This document shows positions 1 through 23,219 of a DNA stretch of 25,381 nucleotides, piece after piece. Both the position numbers and the translations under genes were made by a program. Each line of letters opens with the position of its first letter. Position 1 is the first letter of the stretch. Source of the DNA: a virus; IMG/VR virus record IMGVR_UViG_3300033388_000333, positions 1 through 25,381 of that record; one strand, given 5' to 3'. The notes under the pieces are model-generated. The model was not told where the DNA came from and made no database searches. It saw only the letters and a list, made by a program, of their open reading frames with translations.

Positions 1-1743
1 ATACACTTAACAGACGCTGGCACAGTAAGAGGTAAATTACTACTAAATGCCTCAGATAGAGATAATGTCGAATTAAGAGCTGAATCACTTGGCTCAACGA
101 TGAAATTTTTTACAGCAAGTACACAAGCACTTTTATTAGACGCTTCACAAAACGCAACTTTTTCATCAGATATAACTGTTTCGGGCGGTGATATAACTTT
201 AGGTGGTACAGGTAGAATCCAAGGTGTAGATACAGTATCTGCAAGTACCGATGCTGCTAATAAAGCTTATGTAGACGCACACACAAGTGGTATACAAACA
301 CTAACAGAAGGAGATGGTATAAAAATAACTGGGACGACCACAGCCACTATTTCTGTAAATTACGATGCTGCTGATGCAGATAATTTAATACAAGCTGCTA
401 CGGCTGTTACTTCTATTAATGGAGCGTCAAGTGGGTATGCTGCTTATGTATTAGTTGCAGAAAGCAATCCTGGGGTAACCTATGGTGCTGTCAATAAGAT
501 ACGTGTAAGTGATATACACTTAGAAGATTTTGGGGCTGCAGAAGGAAATATAAATTTAAACTCAAATAAAATAACAAATTTATCTACGCCTACTGCATCA
601 ACTGATGCTGCTAATAAAAGTTATGTTGACAGTGCAGTAGCGGGTTCTCCTCAAGGAACAGTTACTGGGTCAGGAACATCAACAAGAGTAGCTTTTTGGT
701 CATCAGGAAGTGCATTAAGTAGTGATGGTGATTTATTTTGGGACAATAGTAATAAGTATTTAGGCGTAGGCACAAGTCTACCCGCTAATCCATTAGACGT
801 AGCAGGTAATTTTACATTACAAGGAAATCAATACATGGCGGATAATTATCAAATTATCCTGGGGACTGGATCGGATTTAAAAATATTTCATGACGGAACA
901 GATTCAAGAATACAAGACTCTGGTAATGGATTATTAAAGCTTCAAGGTAGTGCAGTGTATTTACAACATACTACAAATGGCACTACGTTTACTAACATGA
1001 TTGAAGCTATTAGTACCTATGTAAGATTAAATTATAGCGGAAGCACTAAACTTGCAACAGCCACTAATGGAGTTAACATAACTGGACTTATAAATATAAG
1101 TGGAGATGCTTATGTGCAGGGTGGAGATATACACATGAATAGTAATGTAAATGTTATGTCTAATTCTGCAAGTGACGTTAATTTAATTATCGGAGACGTA
1201 AATAATAGTGATTCGATAGAGCAGATAGATTTTCACACCTTTGGTAAATCACAACTTACCGTATATGATGATGAGATTACTATGAATGCTTCGAATGTAT
1301 ACCTGGCATCTGATACAAGACTCACTACAGGAAATGACTCTCAAATTAAATACAACGCTACTTTTAGTTCTTCATTCAAAGCAAATGGATTGTTCATGCC
1401 TCAGGGAATTGGAGCTTCTCAAAGTGTAACTCAAGGGTTACTTTATGCATTGACATCTTTAGGCTCATGGATTGCAGTTCAAAACAGTAGCTCTAACTCA
1501 ACACAGTTATTAGCTATTGCGGCTGGCAGTAATGTTCTGTCTGGGATGTTGCTTCAAGGAGTATTTAAGTCTGCTTCTCATGGCTTTGCTATAGGAGCTC
1601 CGATATATATAAACTCTGTATCAGGAACTCTTACTGCCACTGTTCCTACCGCTTCAGGTGCTTATGCACGTGTTGTTGGTCATGCTGTTGATAGTAACTT
1701 TATATTATTTAATCCCGATAACACTTGGGTAAAACTGGCCTAA
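1..1743 (+). CDS. Tail fibre / structural protein, 5'-truncated by window edge
   Basis: The reading frame is open from base 1, so the start lies upstream; the ATG at base 100 is internal. The visible 580 residues are rich in Gly, Ser, Thr, Asn and Ala, as in beta-rich fibre shafts. A fibre-type spacer motif, STDAANKxYVD, occurs twice (DNA near 244-276 and 598-630). The middle contains a segment of the type GSDLKIFHDGTDSRIQDSG (near 865-920), which I know from marine phage fibre proteins. The C-terminus (near 1400-1740) is a compact Gly/Ala/Val-rich beta domain ending in NPDNTWVKLA, also common at ends of phage virion proteins. No Ser/Lys peptidase (S74-type) chaperone is visible at the end. 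The likely role is a distal tail fibre or appendage that contacts the host surface. Phage structural class is confident; the exact position in the virion is not known. Confidence 0.75.
   Translation: MHLTDAGTVRGKLLLNASDRDNVELRAESLGSTMKFFTASTQALLLDASQNATFSSDITVSGGDITLGGTGRIQGVDTVSASTDAANKAYVDAHTSGIQTLTEGDGIKITGTTTATISVNYDAADADNLIQAATAVTSINGASSGYAAYVLVAESNPGVTYGAVNKIRVSDIHLEDFGAAEGNINLNSNKITNLSTPTASTDAANKSYVDSAVAGSPQGTVTGSGTSTRVAFWSSGSALSSDGDLFWDNSNKYLGVGTSLPANPLDVAGNFTLQGNQYMADNYQIILGTGSDLKIFHDGTDSRIQDSGNGLLKLQGSAVYLQHTTNGTTFTNMIEAISTYVRLNYSGSTKLATATNGVNITGLINISGDAYVQGGDIHMNSNVNVMSNSASDVNLIIGDVNNSDSIEQIDFHTFGKSQLTVYDDEITMNASNVYLASDTRLTTGNDSQIKYNATFSSSFKANGLFMPQGIGASQSVTQGLLYALTSLGSWIAVQNSSSNSTQLLAIAAGSNVLSGMLLQGVFKSASHGFAIGAPIYINSVSGTLTATVPTASGAYARVVGHAVDSNFILFNPDNTWVKLA
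250..618 (+). repeat. Direct repeat coding for fibre spacer motif
   Basis: The 15-base sequence gatgctgctaataaa occurs at 250-264 and at 604-618, both in the same reading frame. It encodes DAANK within the two STDAANKxYVD fibre spacers. It is a protein-level repeat reflected in DNA and could serve as a site of homologous exchange between fibre genes. Confidence 0.6.
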
Positions 1744-1746
1744 CGT

Positions 1747-2310
1747 ATGAGATATCTTTCACAATCTTTAATATTTGATGATAGCTCTATTTATTTTATA
1801 AACGAAGAAGATAAAAAAGAGTATGTAATGATGGATTGGGAGGATGTCCTAATGAAAAAACATGCCGACATAGTTTGTCACAATCAAGGGGATATTTTAG
1901 AAATAGGTTTTGGCATGGGTATAAGTGCTAATTATATTCAGGCTAATAACCCCAAATCTCACACTATAATTGAGAATCACCCACAAGTATTAGAAAAAGC
2001 AGTAGAGTGGGCTAAAGATAAACCAAACGTTTTTATTTTAGCGGGGTCTTGGCGAGATAAATTAAATGATTTAAATACGTATGACGGTGTGTTTTATGAC
2101 ACATATGGAGATGATGATTTTAAATTATTTTCCAATCACGTTTCTGAATTAGTAAAAAGCGGAGGTGTGTTTTCGTGGTGGAACAATATAGATAAAGAAG
2201 AAAATGTTTTTGATTTATCAGAAGTAATATATGAGGAAATAAATGTAACACCGACTGATAATTCATATTACAACAGTAGCATTTATTATCTCCCTAAAAA
2301 ACATTTTTAA
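1747..2310 (+). CDS. GAMT-like SAM-dependent methyltransferase
   Basis: A class I S-adenosylmethionine methyltransferase resembling guanidinoacetate N-methyltransferase (GAMT) and the related arginine methyltransferase RMT2. The 187 residues show, in order: DWEDVLM at 30-36 (GAMT has a WE-x-x-(Y/L)M element whose Glu contacts the guanidino group), the SAM-binding motif I LEIGFGMG at 51-58, an acidic end of beta2 in TIIE at 73-76, and YDTY at 117-120, whose Asp corresponds to the GAMT substrate-binding Asp. GGVFSWWNN at 139-147 resembles the post-motif strand KPGGV. It is shorter than animal GAMT (about 236 aa), mainly at the N-terminus. It begins 3 bases after the fibre gene stop and ends just before another virion gene, so it is co-expressed with structural genes. 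The substrate is unknown: a small guanidino compound or an arginine in a virion protein are both possible. The fold is confident; the substrate is inference. Confidence 0.8.
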   Translation: MRYLSQSLIFDDSSIYFINEEDKKEYVMMDWEDVLMKKHADIVCHNQGDILEIGFGMGISANYIQANNPKSHTIIENHPQVLEKAVEWAKDKPNVFILAGSWRDKLNDLNTYDGVFYDTYGDDDFKLFSNHVSELVKSGGVFSWWNNIDKEENVFDLSEVIYEEINVTPTDNSYYNSSIYYLPKKHF

Positions 2311-2312
2311 TT

Positions 2313-3026
2313 ATGCCAACAATAAATATTACAGCATCGCTTCAAGGAGCTTCAGGGCATGTAAATAATAATGCATTTAGTTGGCTAAATGATGCTCGTA
2401 ATCAACCTAATGGGAATATTACTTCAACATACGCTACCAGCACTTCTCAGTGTTGTACAATTAGATCTTCTCTTCTAAGTTCACGTGGTACTTTAAGTGC
2501 AAATTGTTTTCGTTCATTTCTTTTTTTTGACACTACTTCAGTTCCAGGCAACATAACTGCTGCAGATTTAAAAGTATATGGATTCTCTCAAAGTTCAGGA
2601 GATGTTATCCCTATCGAAGCTACTGCTTGGGGGGGCAATGGATCTTCCACTTCTTTGACTAATTCTGATTTTAGTTTTGTAGATTTTAATATGCCATACT
2701 CAACGGGGTCTACGGGTTGGCAAACAGGTACAACACAGCCAAACATTTTTGCACTAAACACAGATGCAATAAATCAAATGAATAATAATCAATACTTAAA
2801 CGTTGCACTAATCAATGAGCAGTATGATTATAATGGGCTAAACATGTTTCCAGGTACAGTACAAATTAATGGGGTTCGGTTTCAAAATACATTTTATCCA
2901 GTTGAATTAGAAATAACTTATAGTGCAGGATATCCACATGATGTTATAGATGTACCAAGCGGATCTATCGAAATAATTGGGGGAGAGTTTTCATCTCAAA
3001 TAGAATCAGTAATAGGGGTTCAGTAA
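2313..3026 (+). CDS. DNRLRE-like beta-sandwich virion protein
   Basis: The 237-aa product is Ser/Thr/Asn-rich with few charged residues, no signal peptide and no membrane segment. The stretch RSFLFFDTTSVPGNITAADL (about residues 67-86) followed by KVYGF and, later, an (E/A)TAW element resembles DNRLRE/CBM-like jelly-roll domains, which typically read R-(S)-x-L-x-F-D-x-S-x-(I/V)-P-x-x-A-x-I-x-x-A-x-L-x-(V/L)-Y. Such domains occur in surface-binding and appendage proteins. The C-terminal part (about 205-237) has a short acidic tail. It starts 2 bases after the methyltransferase stop and is followed by the first real gap in the window, so it ends a transcription block. A receptor-binding or decoration role is inferred from composition and context. 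Confidence 0.55.
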   Translation: MPTINITASLQGASGHVNNNAFSWLNDARNQPNGNITSTYATSTSQCCTIRSSLLSSRGTLSANCFRSFLFFDTTSVPGNITAADLKVYGFSQSSGDVIPIEATAWGGNGSSTSLTNSDFSFVDFNMPYSTGSTGWQTGTTQPNIFALNTDAINQMNNNQYLNVALINEQYDYNGLNMFPGTVQINGVRFQNTFYPVELEITYSAGYPHDVIDVPSGSIEIIGGEFSSQIESVIGVQ

Positions 3027-3883: not shown

Positions 3884-4108
3884 TTGGACATAAGAAAGAT
3901 ATCCATAGGAGCAGATTATAAATCTGGTGCAATGCATTATATTGTAGGCCAAGAAGTTTTAGGCGGAGGATATTCTATTCATTTAATACAACATGATAAA
4001 CCTATGGATTCATATAAGATATGGATTCAGAGCAAAGACGAAGTATTACTATGGAAAGAATTTAAATCAACTATGCCAATTTCTTTGGAATACAATATTA
4101 ATTTTTAA
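3884..4108 (+). CDS. Small conserved phage protein of unknown function (TTG start)
   Basis: I do not recognise a function. The 74-aa product would start at TTG 3884, giving (M)DIRKISIGADYKSGAMHY. An in-frame ATG exists at 3932, but it would discard the DIRKISIGADYKSG segment, which resembles the N-terminus of similar small proteins I recall from related phages, so the TTG is preferred. It is a mixed alpha/beta, His- and Tyr-containing peptide ending SLEYNINF, without membrane or signal features. Its stop overlaps the next ATG (TAATG), so it is translationally coupled to the GroES-like protein downstream. It may be a partner of that protein or of the oxygenase; that is inference from context only. 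Confidence 0.6.
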   Translation: MDIRKISIGADYKSGAMHYIVGQEVLGGGYSIHLIQHDKPMDSYKIWIQSKDEVLLWKEFKSTMPISLEYNINF

Positions 4109-4674
4109 TGCAATCCCCACACTATTTTATTGTAAAGCCATCAAAAGGCAAACGCTACGACAACACAAGAAACTACGGAGATAAAGAATTAATTATAAGT
4201 GTTTCTGAAGAAGACCACACGGTCGCAAATAGATTTGCAAAGGTAGTAAATATACCAATAGGGTATACTGGCGAGATATCAATAGGCGATACCGTTTTAG
4301 TTCACCACAATGTTTTTAAATATTATAATGATATTTATGGAAGACAAAAAAGTGGGCGAAGCTGGTTAAAAGACGATTTGTTTTTAGTAGATGAGTTTCA
4401 GTTTTTTTTATATAAAAAAGATAAGGACTGGAAAGCGTATGATAAATACTGTTTCGTAAAACCCGTTCCTAAAAAAGATTCTTATTTTGTAGGAAGCGGA
4501 GTAACAAAAGAACCTCTGCATGGAGAGTTGGTTTATATTAACAAACAATTAGAAGACTTAGGATTAAAAGTAGGGGACGAAATATGTTTTGAGCCACACA
4601 GTGAATATGCATTTAAAGTAGAGGGAGAGGATTTATATAGAATGTTTACGCAAAATATTACTATAAAATTATGA
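4108..4674 (+). CDS. Tandem GroES-like (Cpn10-like) beta-barrel protein
   Basis: The 188 residues appear to hold two halves that each resemble a co-chaperonin barrel. The first half has AKVVNIP (44-50) then GEISIGDTVLVHHNVF (55-70), like the GroES pattern GKVV-x-x-G...VKVGDxVLF, ending in a strand LFLVDEFQFFLY (91-102). The second half restarts with YCFVKPVP (114-121, like the GroES N-terminal strand RVLVKP), then HGELVYI, LGLKVGDEICFEPHSEYAFKV (151-171), and closes with EDLYRMFTQNITIKL, like the EEYLIMREEDILAVI end of GroES. A canonical mobile loop is not obvious; the variable segments at about 12-40 and 122-137 are candidates. The gene overlaps both neighbours (TAATG upstream, ATGA downstream). 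Phage co-chaperonins such as T4 gp31 serve capsid folding, so a capsid-folding role is plausible but unproven. Confidence 0.5.
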   Translation: MQSPHYFIVKPSKGKRYDNTRNYGDKELIISVSEEDHTVANRFAKVVNIPIGYTGEISIGDTVLVHHNVFKYYNDIYGRQKSGRSWLKDDLFLVDEFQFFLYKKDKDWKAYDKYCFVKPVPKKDSYFVGSGVTKEPLHGELVYINKQLEDLGLKVGDEICFEPHSEYAFKVEGEDLYRMFTQNITIKL

Positions 4675-5240
4675 TATATATAATAGATAATTTTTTAGAT
4701 AAAGATTTTCTTGAGGTCACTCAAAACTATTTAAACGAACCTTTCCAAAAAGTTATATCTGGCGGAAAGGATTTTTACGTTTTAGAGTCAAATGAAGATT
4801 TTGATAATTATATATTACAAATATTAGAATATAAAGAAGGTGTTCAGTTAGAAAACATATTAAGTTTTTTTAGGGTTTCTACTAACGAATTGGATGTCAC
4901 TTGGCGTATTCATTCAGACTTAAATATTAAAGGTCAAAAACCTGATCGTGCAATAGTTTTATATTTATCTCCAAAGGAACTTGAAGAGTTGCACGGGACT
5001 GCTTTTTGGGAGCACGATATTTATGGAAGTAAACTTCCTCCTGAAATAAGTGACGAAGAGTATGATCGAATGATTGAAGCAGATGCTGAAATATTAGATA
5101 AATGGAGATTAAGTTCAGTTGTAGGGTATGAAGAAAATAGATTACTTTCTTACCCTTCAAGTTATTTTCATAGTAAGTACCCTAATAAAAGCTGGCCCTC
5201 TGGCAGAAAAGTATTTGTAATGTTTTATAAATTTAAGTAA
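4671..5240 (+). CDS. 2-oxoglutarate/Fe(II)-dependent oxygenase
   Basis: The 189-aa product fits the double-stranded beta-helix dioxygenase family. The iron-binding triad is visible as H81-x-D83 (in WRIHSDLNI) and H167 (in YPSSYFHSKYP). R179 in SGRKVFVMFY, 12 residues after the distal His, is positioned to bind the 2-oxoglutarate carboxylate. RAIVLYLSP (93-101) and HGTAFWEH (108-115) match the strands that follow HxD in this family. These enzymes couple 2-oxoglutarate decarboxylation to hydroxylation or demethylation of proteins, nucleic acids or small molecules. The start ATG overlaps the preceding TGA (ATGA) and the stop overlaps the next ATG (TAATG). All catalytic residues are present, so it is probably active. 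The substrate is unknown; position beside structural genes suggests a virion or host protein. Confidence 0.8.
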   Translation: MIYIIDNFLDKDFLEVTQNYLNEPFQKVISGGKDFYVLESNEDFDNYILQILEYKEGVQLENILSFFRVSTNELDVTWRIHSDLNIKGQKPDRAIVLYLSPKELEELHGTAFWEHDIYGSKLPPEISDEEYDRMIEADAEILDKWRLSSVVGYEENRLLSYPSSYFHSKYPNKSWPSGRKVFVMFYKFK

Positions 5241-5512
5241 TGGATATAAAAGCACTTAAAATAAAAATAATAGACGCAGGGCAAAAGGCTGTAGATGAAT
5301 TAATAAACGTAGCTAAAGAAAAAATAGTAACAGGAACAGAAGATGATGTTTCTGCTGATAGATTAAAAAACGCAGCTGCCACAAAAAAACTTGCAATTTT
5401 TGATGCTTTTGAAATATTAAAAAGAATAGAAGAAGAAAGAGATAGATTGGAAGGAAAGGATATTAAGAAAAATAATTTACCAAAAGGATTTGCAGAAAGA
5501 AAATCAAAATAG
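5240..5512 (+). CDS. Putative terminase small subunit
   Basis: A 90-aa, strongly helical, Lys/Glu-rich protein directly upstream of the large terminase, which is the usual place for the small terminase (DNA-recognition) subunit. Residues about 1-30 could form a first helix pair, and about 36-75 (DDVSADRLKNAAAT through EERDRLEG) a long helix that could oligomerise. The tail is basic (KGFAERKSK). No clear helix-turn-helix can be confirmed by eye, so the call is mainly positional. The start overlaps the oxygenase stop by one base, and the end overlaps the proposed TTG start of the large terminase by 23 bases, consistent with translational coupling. Confidence 0.5.
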   Translation: MDIKALKIKIIDAGQKAVDELINVAKEKIVTGTEDDVSADRLKNAAATKKLAIFDAFEILKRIEEERDRLEGKDIKKNNLPKGFAERKSK

Positions 5513-6503
5513 CCTATACAGTGTTTTACAAAAAGTTGTACCTGATAAAGTTATGTCTTCTAAAAACAGACATAGATCTTGGCAGTATGGTTATAATGAT
5601 AAGTATGATATTGTAATTATATCCAAAGATGGAACTATTGGAGATATATATAATATAAATGGTTTAAAAGTAGCACTACCAAGTAAGCCAAAAAAAATTC
5701 ATAAAAGATCATCTACACAAAAAGAACAATATTGGGAGTCTAAAGAATATCCAAAAGAATTAAAAAGAATCCCCACAATTTTTGTATGGCACAGTATGCC
5801 TAACTCTTTCAAGGAACAATGGGTTGACTATATAGAAGAAGAGTTTAACCGTAGGGACAATGGTTTCTGGTTTGCAAACAATGGTGTACCTACCTACATA
5901 ACGGGGTCTCACTATATGTATTTACAATGGACTAAGATTGATGTTGGCCTTCCTGATTTTCGGGAAGCTAATAGAATCTTTTATATATACTGGGAAGCTT
6001 GTAAGGCAGACAAAAGAAGTTTTGGGATTTGTTATTTAAAGATAAGGCGTTCAGGTTTTTCCTACATGGGTTCAGAAGAATGTGTTAATATAGCCACACT
6101 TGCTAAAGATTCTCGTGTAGGCATATTGTCAAAAACTGGATCGGATGCCAAAAAAATGTTTACAGACAAAGTTGTTCCTATATCTAACAACTATCCATTT
6201 TTCTTTAAACCCATACAAGACGGTATGGATAAACCAAAAACTGAATTAGCCTTTAGAGTTCCTGCTTCTAAGATTACAAAAAAGAATATGTTTGAAATGG
6301 AAGAAGAAGAGCTTGAAGGATTAGATACTACTATTGACTGGAAAAATACTTCTGACAACAGCTATGATGGTGAGAAGTTAAGGTTACTAATACATGATGA
6401 AAGTGGTAAATGGGAAAAGCCTGAAAACATTTTAAACAATTGGCGTGTAACAAAAACTTGTTTGCGTCTTGGTAGCAAAGTTATAGGTAAGTGTATGATG
6501 TAA
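5490..6503 (+). CDS. terL: Terminase large subunit, N-terminal ATPase part (interrupted)
   Basis: The packaging motor ATPase half. From the TTG start, 337 residues are read. A deviant Walker A, KIRRSGFS, is at 184-191 (no Lys before Ser, as in several phage terminases). Walker B with catalytic Glu, LRLLIHDE, is at 297-304. The frame stops after GSKVIGKCMM at 337, just where TerL proteins continue into ATPase motif III (a G-S/T-rich coupling motif) and a short linker. The rest of TerL resumes in another frame at 6491. TTG 5490 is chosen because NSLYSVLQKVVPDKVM looks conserved; ATG 5553 is the alternative. By itself this product lacks motif III and the nuclease and should not package DNA. A short deletion, real or from assembly, is the simplest explanation. 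Confidence 0.85.
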   Translation: MQKENQNSLYSVLQKVVPDKVMSSKNRHRSWQYGYNDKYDIVIISKDGTIGDIYNINGLKVALPSKPKKIHKRSSTQKEQYWESKEYPKELKRIPTIFVWHSMPNSFKEQWVDYIEEEFNRRDNGFWFANNGVPTYITGSHYMYLQWTKIDVGLPDFREANRIFYIYWEACKADKRSFGICYLKIRRSGFSYMGSEECVNIATLAKDSRVGILSKTGSDAKKMFTDKVVPISNNYPFFFKPIQDGMDKPKTELAFRVPASKITKKNMFEMEEEELEGLDTTIDWKNTSDNSYDGEKLRLLIHDESGKWEKPENILNNWRVTKTCLRLGSKVIGKCMM

Positions 6504-7672
6504 AAAAAAGAAACTCGAATGGTCAAACTAAAAGCGGATTATATTCACTTTTCATCCCTATGGAATGGAACATGGAGGGTTTTATAGATAGGTATGGGAT
6601 GCCTGTTTTTGAAACTCCAAAAAACGCAGTAGAAGGAATCGATGGCGAAGATATATTTCAAGGGTCAGTAACGTATTGGGAAAACGAAGTAGAATCGCTG
6701 CATAGTGATCCTGATGCTTTAAATGAATTTTATAGACAGTTTCCTCGCTCAGAGTCTCATGCATTTAGAGACGAGAGCAAGCAATCTATTTTTAACTTAA
6801 CTAAAATATATCAACAAATAGACTATAATGACTCCCTCATAAAAGATCATTTTATTACTCAAGGATCTTTTAGTTGGAAAAACGGAATAAAGGATTCAGA
6901 GGTTATTTGGACTCCAAATAAAAGAGGTAGATTTTTTGTAACTTACATGCCGAAAGCTGCATTGCAAAATAATGTTATAAAAAAGAGTGGTAGATTTTTA
7001 CCAGGCAATGAACATTTAGGTTCATTTGGCTGCGACTCTTACGATATTTCAGGAGTAGTAGTAGGTAAAGGATCTAACGGTTCTTTGCATGGGCTTACAA
7101 AATTTTCTATGGAAGAAATGCCAAGTAATCATTTTTTCCTGGAATATATTGCCAGACCTCAAACTGCCGAAATATTTTTTGAAGAAGTTTTGATGGCTTG
7201 TGTTTTTTATGGTATGCCTATTTTGTGCGAGAATAACAAACCAAGACTTTTATATCATTTTAAAAACAGAGGTTACAGAGACTTCTGTTTAAATAGACCT
7301 GATAAAAATTATTCTAAACTTTCAAAAACAGAAAAAGAGTTAGGTGGTATACCAAACACTTCTGAAGACGTAAAGCAATCGCATGCAGCAGCTATTGAGT
7401 CTTACATAGAAAAATATGTAGGACTGGATCAGCAGGGTATATATAGGACCAGAGGAGATATGGGTGATATGTATTTTCAAAGAACCCTTGAAGACTGGGC
7501 TAAATTTGACATTTCTAACCGAACAAGGTTTGATGCGTCTATTAGTTCAGGGTTGGCAATTATGGCTAATCAAAAACACTTATATACACCGTCAAAAGAA
7601 ATGAGGAAAATAAGCATTAAATTTGCAACATATAACAACACTGATTCTCACAGTAGAATAAATAATAGATGA
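6491..7672 (+). CDS. terL: Terminase large subunit, C-terminal nuclease part (separate frame)
   Basis: This frame continues TerL with DVKKRNSNGQTKSGLYSLF and PMEWN, a signature of this Bacteroidota-phage terminase group, then the RNase H-like headful/cos nuclease. Candidate metal-binding acids are D182/D185 in FGCDSYDISG, E247 in PILCENNKPR and D348 in NRTRFDASIS, numbered from GTG 6491. The nuclease therefore looks intact. A start at GTG 6491 is possible but probably artificial: the first residues are the remains of a linker normally inside one polypeptide. It overlaps the N-terminal part by 13 bases in a different frame and ends in an ATGA overlap with the portal gene. If the break is real, separate translation from GTG would give a nuclease-only protein. 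Confidence 0.85.
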   Translation: MYDVKKRNSNGQTKSGLYSLFIPMEWNMEGFIDRYGMPVFETPKNAVEGIDGEDIFQGSVTYWENEVESLHSDPDALNEFYRQFPRSESHAFRDESKQSIFNLTKIYQQIDYNDSLIKDHFITQGSFSWKNGIKDSEVIWTPNKRGRFFVTYMPKAALQNNVIKKSGRFLPGNEHLGSFGCDSYDISGVVVGKGSNGSLHGLTKFSMEEMPSNHFFLEYIARPQTAEIFFEEVLMACVFYGMPILCENNKPRLLYHFKNRGYRDFCLNRPDKNYSKLSKTEKELGGIPNTSEDVKQSHAAAIESYIEKYVGLDQQGIYRTRGDMGDMYFQRTLEDWAKFDISNRTRFDASISSGLAIMANQKHLYTPSKEMRKISIKFATYNNTDSHSRINNR

Positions 7673-11618: not shown

Positions 11619-13076
11619 ATGGCAGTAAATGCAACCCCAGGTTTCGATTTACAACCTTCAGCACAACAAGTGCCGTTGGAAACTAACTATATCACAGACT
11701 TTAATTTCTTGAACCAGTATCTACCTGATACTTATGAGAAAGAGTTTGAAAGATATGGTAATCGATCAATTAGTTCCTTCCTAAGATTGGTAGGAGCTGA
11801 AATGCCTTCTAACTCTGACCTTATCAAATGGGCTGAGCAAGGAAGACTACACGTTAAGTATCAAAATTGTACATCAGCAGGTGCTCAAGGAGCTGCAACT
11901 GGTGTATGGACAATACCTAACAACATCTCTAACTTTAACCCTGCATTAGCAGGAGGAGCTAAAGCTTCTCTTAGAGTTGGACAAACAGTAATGATTTCAG
12001 ACAAAACTTCAGGTTCAAACTTTACGAACAAAGGAGTTGTAACAGTTGCCCCTACGGCTGGTGCACCAAACACAGTAACAATTGCTTACTATGAAGGAAC
12101 AGGTCAAGCAATGGTAGCAGGGACAGCGTGTGATATCTTTATCTATGGTTCTGAATTTAACAAAGGAACAGACGGAATGGTAGGCTCTAATGAAGCTGAT
12201 GATTTAATCTTTGACAACAAGCCAATTATTATTAAAGACAGATACGAAGTGTCTGGATCTGATATGGCTCAAATCGGATGGATTGAAGTTTCAGGAGAAG
12301 ACGGAGTAAGCGGATACCTTTGGTATTTAAAGTCTGAGCATGACACAAGACTACGTTTTGAAGACTACATGGAAACAGCGATGATTGAGGCAGTTCCAGC
12401 TGAAGCTGGTTCTGGAGCAGGTGGTTACTTCCAAGGAGTAGCTGCAGGTGCATCAGTTGCAAACCTTAACGGTTCTGAAGGTGTATTCTACGTTGTAGAA
12501 GAAAGAGGAAATGTTTTTGGTGGAGGTAACCCAACATCTCTTGCTGAGTTTGACAGCATCATCCAACGATTAGATAAGCAAGGTGCTATCGAAGAGAATG
12601 TTCTTTTCGTAAACCGTAACTTCTCATTCGACATGGACGATATGTTAGCTGCTCAAAACTCTTACGGAGCTGGAGGAACTTCTTATGGTTTATTCGACAA
12701 TGACGAAGAGATGGCATTAAATCTTGGATTCTCAGGATTCCGAAGAGGTTATGACTTCTACAAGTCTGACTGGAAATACCTTAACGACCCAACAATGAGA
12801 GGTGGTCTTGTAGGTGGAGCAATCAACGGACTATTAGTTCCTGCTGGTTCTACTACAGTATACGATCAAATCTTAGGAAAGAATGCTAAGCGTCCTTTCT
12901 TACACGTTCGTTACAGAGCTTCTGAGACTGAAGACAGACGTTACAAAACTTGGATCACTGGTTCTGCTGGTGGAGCAAGAACTTCTGATCTTGATGCTAT
13001 GCAGGTCAACTTCTTGACTGAAAGAGCAGTTTGTGTCTTAGGTGCAAACAACTTCTTCTTATTCCAAGATGCGTAA
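11619..13076 (+). CDS. Major capsid protein (HK97 fold)
   Basis: The 485-aa product matches the capsid family of crAss-like and related Bacteroidota phages (recognised from sequence style, not a search). Features in order: a short N-terminal arm (MAVNATPGFDLQPSAQQ), a TYEKEFERYGNRSISSFLRLVGAEMPSNSD helix region, WAEQGRLHVKYQN, an inserted Gly/Ala/Thr-rich beta domain at about 85-185, WYLKSEHDTRLRFEDYMETAM (spine-helix area), and the C-terminal A-domain with LGFSGFRRGYDFYKSDWKYL, RYRASETEDRRYKTW and AVCVLGANNFFLFQ. No large N-terminal delta domain is seen, consistent with a separate scaffold gene. Codon choice is shifted towards C-ending codons (aac, ttc, gac, tac) compared with neighbours, as expected for the most highly expressed virion gene. 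It is followed by a strong hairpin. Confidence 0.88.
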   Translation: MAVNATPGFDLQPSAQQVPLETNYITDFNFLNQYLPDTYEKEFERYGNRSISSFLRLVGAEMPSNSDLIKWAEQGRLHVKYQNCTSAGAQGAATGVWTIPNNISNFNPALAGGAKASLRVGQTVMISDKTSGSNFTNKGVVTVAPTAGAPNTVTIAYYEGTGQAMVAGTACDIFIYGSEFNKGTDGMVGSNEADDLIFDNKPIIIKDRYEVSGSDMAQIGWIEVSGEDGVSGYLWYLKSEHDTRLRFEDYMETAMIEAVPAEAGSGAGGYFQGVAAGASVANLNGSEGVFYVVEERGNVFGGGNPTSLAEFDSIIQRLDKQGAIEENVLFVNRNFSFDMDDMLAAQNSYGAGGTSYGLFDNDEEMALNLGFSGFRRGYDFYKSDWKYLNDPTMRGGLVGGAINGLLVPAGSTTVYDQILGKNAKRPFLHVRYRASETEDRRYKTWITGSAGGARTSDLDAMQVNFLTERAVCVLGANNFFLFQDA

Positions 13077-22808: not shown

Positions 22809-23219
22809 ATGAAATTAAATGTAAAGCCTTTAAAAAACACTGATTACGACAATATACTATGTCAGTGGTGGCGTGACTGGAGATGGACTCCTCCCTACAG
22901 AGATTTTTTACCAGAGAATGGTACTGGGGGGTATATGGTTTATGATGAAGACACTCCAGTTTGTGCAGGCTTTATGTATACAACTAATTCAAAAGTAGCT
23001 TGGTGTGATTGGATTATATCTAATATAAGCTATAAAGATAGAACAAAAAGAAAGCAAGCACTTGAGTTGTTAATAAAACAAATAACTGAAGTTGCTAAGC
23101 GAAAAGGATTTAAATACTCGTATGCGTTAATAAAAAATAAACCTTTGATAGACACTTATAAAAAGATAGGATACAAAGAGGCTTCAAGTTATACGAGCGA
23201 AATGATTAAAGTATTATAA
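22809..23219 (+). CDS. GNAT-type N-acetyltransferase-like protein
   Basis: The 136-aa product has the length and layout of small GNAT enzymes that transfer acetyl from acetyl-CoA to an amine. After beta1-alpha1 (VKPLKNTDYDNILCQWWRDW), strand elements GGYMVYDEDTPVCAGFMYTT (about 40-59) and VAWCDWIISNISY (63-75) precede the acetyl-CoA-binding helix RTKRKQALELLIKQITEVAKRKG (78-100). The usual R/Q-x-x-G-x-G/A loop is replaced by KDRTKRKQA, so catalysis may be weak. ALIKNKPLIDTYKKIGY (106-122) matches the conserved end motif (N-x-x-x-x-x-x-Y-x-K-x-G-F). Its position between a tail gene and ejected-protein genes suggests virion or host protein acetylation, or a non-catalytic role. The stop is one base before the next ATG. 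Confidence 0.65.
   Translation: MKLNVKPLKNTDYDNILCQWWRDWRWTPPYRDFLPENGTGGYMVYDEDTPVCAGFMYTTNSKVAWCDWIISNISYKDRTKRKQALELLIKQITEVAKRKGFKYSYALIKNKPLIDTYKKIGYKEASSYTSEMIKVL

Follow-up and report, generated by a model that had tools for sequence, protein, structure and literature searches.

Yeast RMT2, a protein arginine delta-N-methyltransferase, is regarded as a relative of GAMT; it is larger, is extended at the N terminus and has a ribosomal protein as its substrate, and RMT2-type chemistry would suit a protein arginine. In GAMT, E45 contacts the guanidino group. D134 of GAMT is the proton acceptor (PMC12471008). A May 2026 study, by its own account the first on phage protein methylation, describes methylated phage proteins in virions, among them a putative tail fibre of the Cellulophaga phage phi18:1 that carries methylated arginines in free virions; none of the phages in that study is known to encode methyltransferases, and host enzymes were inferred to be responsible (PMC13288928). 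No phage GAMT-like or arginine methyltransferase is described in the open-access literature that we searched.

We analyzed a 25,381-base virus record, hereinafter the window, that encodes a GAMT-fold methyltransferase (MT) between two tail genes. The structural protein encoded at 11619-13076 is seemingly the major capsid protein and has relatives in Maribacter phage Panino, Flavobacterium elemo phages and Cellulophaga phages, so that, judging by sequence, the host is likely a flavobacterium. The MT open reading frame (ORF) is separated by 3 nt from the stop codon of the upstream fibre-like ORF (1-1743) and by 2 nt from the downstream ORF (2313-3026), the product of which we denote the partner. 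The features of this cassette are the following:

1..1743, plus strand: tail-fibre-like protein, truncated by the left edge of the window (PHROG tail fibre and structural matches)
1396..1740, plus strand: C-terminal domain of the fibre (...RVVGHA...FNPDNTWVKLA), located 5' of the MT in most relatives (comparison of the relatives' loci)
1747..2310, plus strand: GAMT-fold MT, 187 aa, ATG start (ORF, phmmer, profile and model)
1840..1842, plus strand: codon of MT E32, aligned with rat GAMT E45 (alignment)
1894..1926, plus strand: SAM-binding motif ILEIGFGMGIS, MT residues 50-60 (sequence)
2098..2100, plus strand: codon of MT D118 in YDTY, aligned with rat GAMT D134 (alignment)
2313..3026, plus strand: partner, 237 aa, CBM96/CBM100-like beta-sandwich, proposed adhesin and substrate (synteny and model)
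2484..2486, plus strand: codon of partner R58 at the SSRGT hairpin tip, proposed methylation site (model and comparison of loci)

Elsewhere in the window, the terminase large subunit (5490-7672) is split into two overlapping ORFs that correspond to two parts of phrog_6681. In a near-identical contig (L001), the same region is a single ORF that extends to the contig end, so that a frameshift or an artefact of assembly probably accounts for the split. Within the virion gene run, at 4108-5240, a GroES-like gene (phrog_13932) precedes one that resembles 2OG-Fe(II) oxygenases, with weak similarity to DUF6445 and an HxD motif. A GNAT-like acetyltransferase (phrog_17252; 22809-23219), another possible virion-modifying enzyme, is also encoded amid virion genes.

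A phmmer search against all PDB sequences matched the MT to four distinct GAMT sequences (E 2e-13 to 4e-13), with the best non-GAMT match at E 0.1, and a profile of 47 MT relatives matched GAMT at E 1e-24, compared with 1e-4 for the next match; in these searches, the similarity between the MT and GAMT is far above chance. The AlphaFold model of the MT, built from a 46-row alignment (pLDDT 95, pTM 0.91), matched the GAMT structure with bound SAH and guanidinoacetate (1xcj) with Z 23.6 and rmsd 2.1 over 182 of 187 residues, as opposed to Z 15.8 for the next-best family. The predicted structure thus shows the GAMT fold over the full domain. In the printed alignment, E32 and D118 correspond to E45 and D134 of rat GAMT (E46 and D135 of the human enzyme); D118 is invariant and E32 is conserved in at least 90% of the 47 representative relatives. 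Throughout the main MT family, with about 50% divergence, E52, D118 and the GFGM motif are retained, and E32 nearly so. The first-pass annotation had recognized a GAMT-like protein by its SAM motif, the Glu of WED and the Asp of YDTY, and had proposed structure prediction as a check and, as a refutation, placement in another family by a profile search; the assignment, including both residues at the level of alignment, withstood these comparisons, and the profile search pointed to no better-fitting family. PRMTs are absent among the fold matches listed for the model, which speaks of that list and not of true absence, and no PRMT model is among the Pfam and NCBIfam matches; the MT protein stops where the core domain stops. 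Because Pfam and NCBIfam provided generic methyltransferase models only, all below threshold, and PHROGs provided no matches, the MT family is absent from the standard phage library.

Three pattern scans of IMG/VR retrieved 463, 450 and 389 contigs with MT relatives, in overlapping sets (about 460 viral contigs). Among deposited phages, the sole carrier is one uncultured 634-kb megaphage record, in which the MT is located directly 3' of fibre-like genes; this being the only close relative among deposited genomes, no cultured phage with the MT was found. A single scan of prokaryote genomes yielded six MT loci: one on a phage contig from a Flavobacteriales MAG (L092), whose cassette matches that of the window, and five distant cellular homologues. 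The distant cellular GAMT-like genes of Allokutzneria (L093 4843-7811) and Thiothrix (L097 2999-6609) belong to apparent small-molecule clusters, and in Allokutzneria another gene resembling a SAM methyltransferase comes next. T4-like contigs (L006-L012; for example, L007 670-7220) encode one or two GAMT-like proteins, the genes for which adjoin tandem 2OG-Fe(II) oxygenases; L007 additionally encodes a protein of 757 aa that contains a Hint/intein-like domain. The CBM-like partner was not found on these T4-like contigs or in the megaphage (L014). Given the T4-like contigs with the MT and without this partner, the MT family is probably not confined to one substrate; in the T4-like phages and the megaphage, either the substrate differs or the link to the partner is not general.

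Gene order was compared for 136 distinct MT sequences in 426 loci (131 viral and 5 cellular sequences). The partner adjoins the MT in 121 of the 131 distinct viral copies, counting L175/L212/L226 and L277, where the partner calls rest on common C-terminal repeats only. The order fibre domain, MT, partner is found for 96 of the 136 sequences; a further 15 MTs are upstream and 10 are downstream of the partner, 2 have the fibre domain without the partner, and 13 have neither (the 5 cellular sequences and 8 viral ones from the T4-like group, the megaphage and L276). In the lineage of L041, L048 and L058, the MT is on the opposite side of the partner, yet adjacent. Among 77 fibre-domain loci with downstream room, 22 contain the MT and the partner, 18 the partner only and 37 neither; in none of the 77 was the MT present downstream of the fibre domain without the partner. 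Placement of the MT inside a virion gene run, initially noted for this window, is therefore stronger than first claimed, because the neighbourhood is kept in more than 100 distinct viral copies. Glycosyltransferase-like genes are found downstream of the cassette in L002 (4030-9258) and L092 (5603-9252), accompanied in L002 by an apparent FkbM-type methyltransferase, perhaps reflecting further modification of the virion surface.

The model of the partner (pLDDT 92.5) is most similar to a CBM that binds chondroitin sulfate (8wab, Z 15.2) and to CBM96, which binds alginate (7vbo, Z 13.0), all remaining matches being at or below Z 10.0, and its viral structure matches include a phage protein whose name assigns it a CBM96 domain. 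No match to Pfam or PHROGs and no PDB sequence match to CBM96 or CBM100 was obtained. The partner is thus CBM96-like in its predicted fold and is not a member of the family by sequence profile. A consensus-like query composed from the alignment of the partner family retrieved no match in deposited phages. The family shows 31% mean column identity, and R67 is invariant nonetheless; in the model, R58 sits at the turn that links strand 44-57 to strand 60-73. In CBM96, Lys27 and Arg36, likewise nine residues apart, are key for alginate binding (PMC9971899) and may correspond to R58 and R67.

The loop residue at the position of R58 is Arg in all 119 distinct partners with an adjacent intact MT, in a motif that reads roughly G/S/A/T-R-G/S/T/F. 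Among 32 partners without an adjacent MT, a sample enriched by a query taken from the lysine clade, 27 have Lys at this position and 4 have Arg, with 1 left unclassified; no MT was detected elsewhere on the 15 MT-less contigs checked, many of which are fragments. Two contigs of one lineage, L081 and L269, encode an MT in which E32 is changed to G, together with a partner that has Lys in the loop. A sequencing error in L081 is an unlikely cause because L269, a separate and non-identical contig, also carries E32G. Degenerate MT relatives (E52Q, D118N) are encoded beside tail genes in L175 (1153-1800), L212 (9228-9872) and L226 (11081-11725), where the partner is unrelated and lacks the CBM-like loop. 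In the partner tree, both R-to-K changes map to branches without an intact MT, a class that makes up 9% of the branch length in the arginine state; this gives a crude P of 0.008, a post hoc branch-length estimate from a quick tree with long branches. The raw counts would suggest a clear-cut association, but among the tree-based independent pairs two are concordant, two are ties and none is opposed (p 0.5 in a sign test). The covariation, as seen in these sequences, is a good lead, short of proof, and we put R58 forward as a candidate site only, since phylogenetic control leaves just two concordant switches. On one reading, Arg would be required while the MT acts on the loop, and Lys would be enough for glycan contact otherwise; alternatively, the basic residue may be conserved for ligand binding alone. 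Retention of Arg in four MT-less partners implies that the loop Arg has a methylation-independent role.

The explanation that we favour, and to which we assign about an even chance, is that the MT is a guanidino N-methyltransferase of GAMT/RMT2 type and that its target is an arginine side chain of a tail protein from the same cassette, most likely R58 of the partner. SAM would bind at the GFGMG motif, and the guanidino group would be held by E32 and D118, with D118 as the proton acceptor, in a GAMT-like manner; sequence and fold agree on the motif and on both residues. An arginine of a cassette protein would then receive the methyl group before or during tail assembly. The site may be R58 on the hairpin tip of the CBM96-like adhesin, and methyl-arginine, within the proposed glycan-binding face or close to it, might alter binding to the host surface polysaccharide. 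We infer a virion-protein substrate from synteny. Such a target had been suggested in the first-pass annotation, and this part of the suggestion is favoured by synteny together with covariation of the partner Arg, the methylation itself being still putative. The broader proposition, that mostly marine, widespread phages use a dedicated GAMT/RMT2-type MT to modify one Arg in the glycan-binding face of their own adhesin, with the Arg/Lys identity coevolving with MT activity, is more tentative, and we consider it somewhat less likely to hold than to fail.

Should the MT instead be an arginine methyltransferase of the tail cassette with another target, such as the fibre C-terminal domain, another residue of the partner or a host protein, R58 would be kept for glycan contact. 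Such a division of roles would be consistent with the conservation of Arg or Lys in the loop of MT-less partners, with the use of Lys27 and Arg36, nine residues apart, for alginate by CBM96 (PMC9971899), and with the lack of the partner on the T4-like contigs. The fibre domain upstream of most MT copies also contains an invariant Arg (RVVGY); however, loci that lack the MT, those of cultured immuto phages among them, conserve this Arg just as much, which rules it out as an MT-specific site. Every observed R-to-K change goes together with an MT that is lost or mutated, and the MT never follows the fibre domain without the partner in the 77-locus sample, so that we regard a different target as rather unlikely.

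A small-molecule guanidino methyltransferase, acting on guanidinoacetate, arginine or another metabolite and encoded by an auxiliary metabolic gene placed by chance among tail genes, appears less probable still. GAMT, the closest solved relative, is a small-molecule enzyme, and the Allokutzneria and Thiothrix relatives are in apparent small-molecule clusters; against this stand the conserved place beside one tail partner in two gene orders and the covariation of the MT with a residue of that partner. A host osmolyte or energy metabolite, the other target initially envisaged, and creatine chemistry are disfavoured because the MT follows tail genes and accompanies one adhesin-like partner, with no metabolic genes in the cassette; a cassette protein as the substrate fits the synteny, and a small metabolite is a poor fit. 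No amidinotransferase was apparent among the ORFs of the window, which is a 25-kb fragment. A role with little if any catalysis, in which the GAMT-fold protein would chiefly help the fibre or adhesin to fold or assemble, would suit its position between fibre and adhesin genes, which resembles that of tail-fibre assembly genes, and the retention of the gene in L175/L212/L226 despite D118N and E52Q, but is improbable given the conservation of E52, D118 and the GFGM motif, and nearly so of E32, over about 50% divergence and the coincidence of E32 loss with the partner change.

If the favoured explanation is correct, the cassette would provide the phage protein methylation field with a defined enzyme-substrate pair and a predicted site, an instance of a receptor-binding protein tuned after translation, and an arginine methyltransferase that is compact and not a PRMT. 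Compared with GAMT (PDB 1xcj, 3orh, 1khh), the MT shares the fold over its whole length, the VMxxWE and YDTY motifs and the GFGM SAM motif, but it is shorter (187 versus 236 aa), about 29% identical, and has (T/S)WWN where GAMT has TYCNLT after the last core strand; the context of GAMT is creatine synthesis, whereas that of the MT is a viral tail cassette. The partner resembles the CBM96 and CBM100 modules (7vbo, 8wab) in its predicted beta-sandwich and conserved basic residues nine apart, and differs from them in the low identity (9-12% only), the extra C-terminal repeats (GVAxANIxKVIGV) and the phage tail cassette setting. The closest parallel in virions comes from the Cellulophaga baltica phages, marine flavobacterial phages that bear methyl-arginine on a putative tail fibre; there, methylation is credited to host enzymes (PMC13288928), in contrast to the phage-encoded MT described here.
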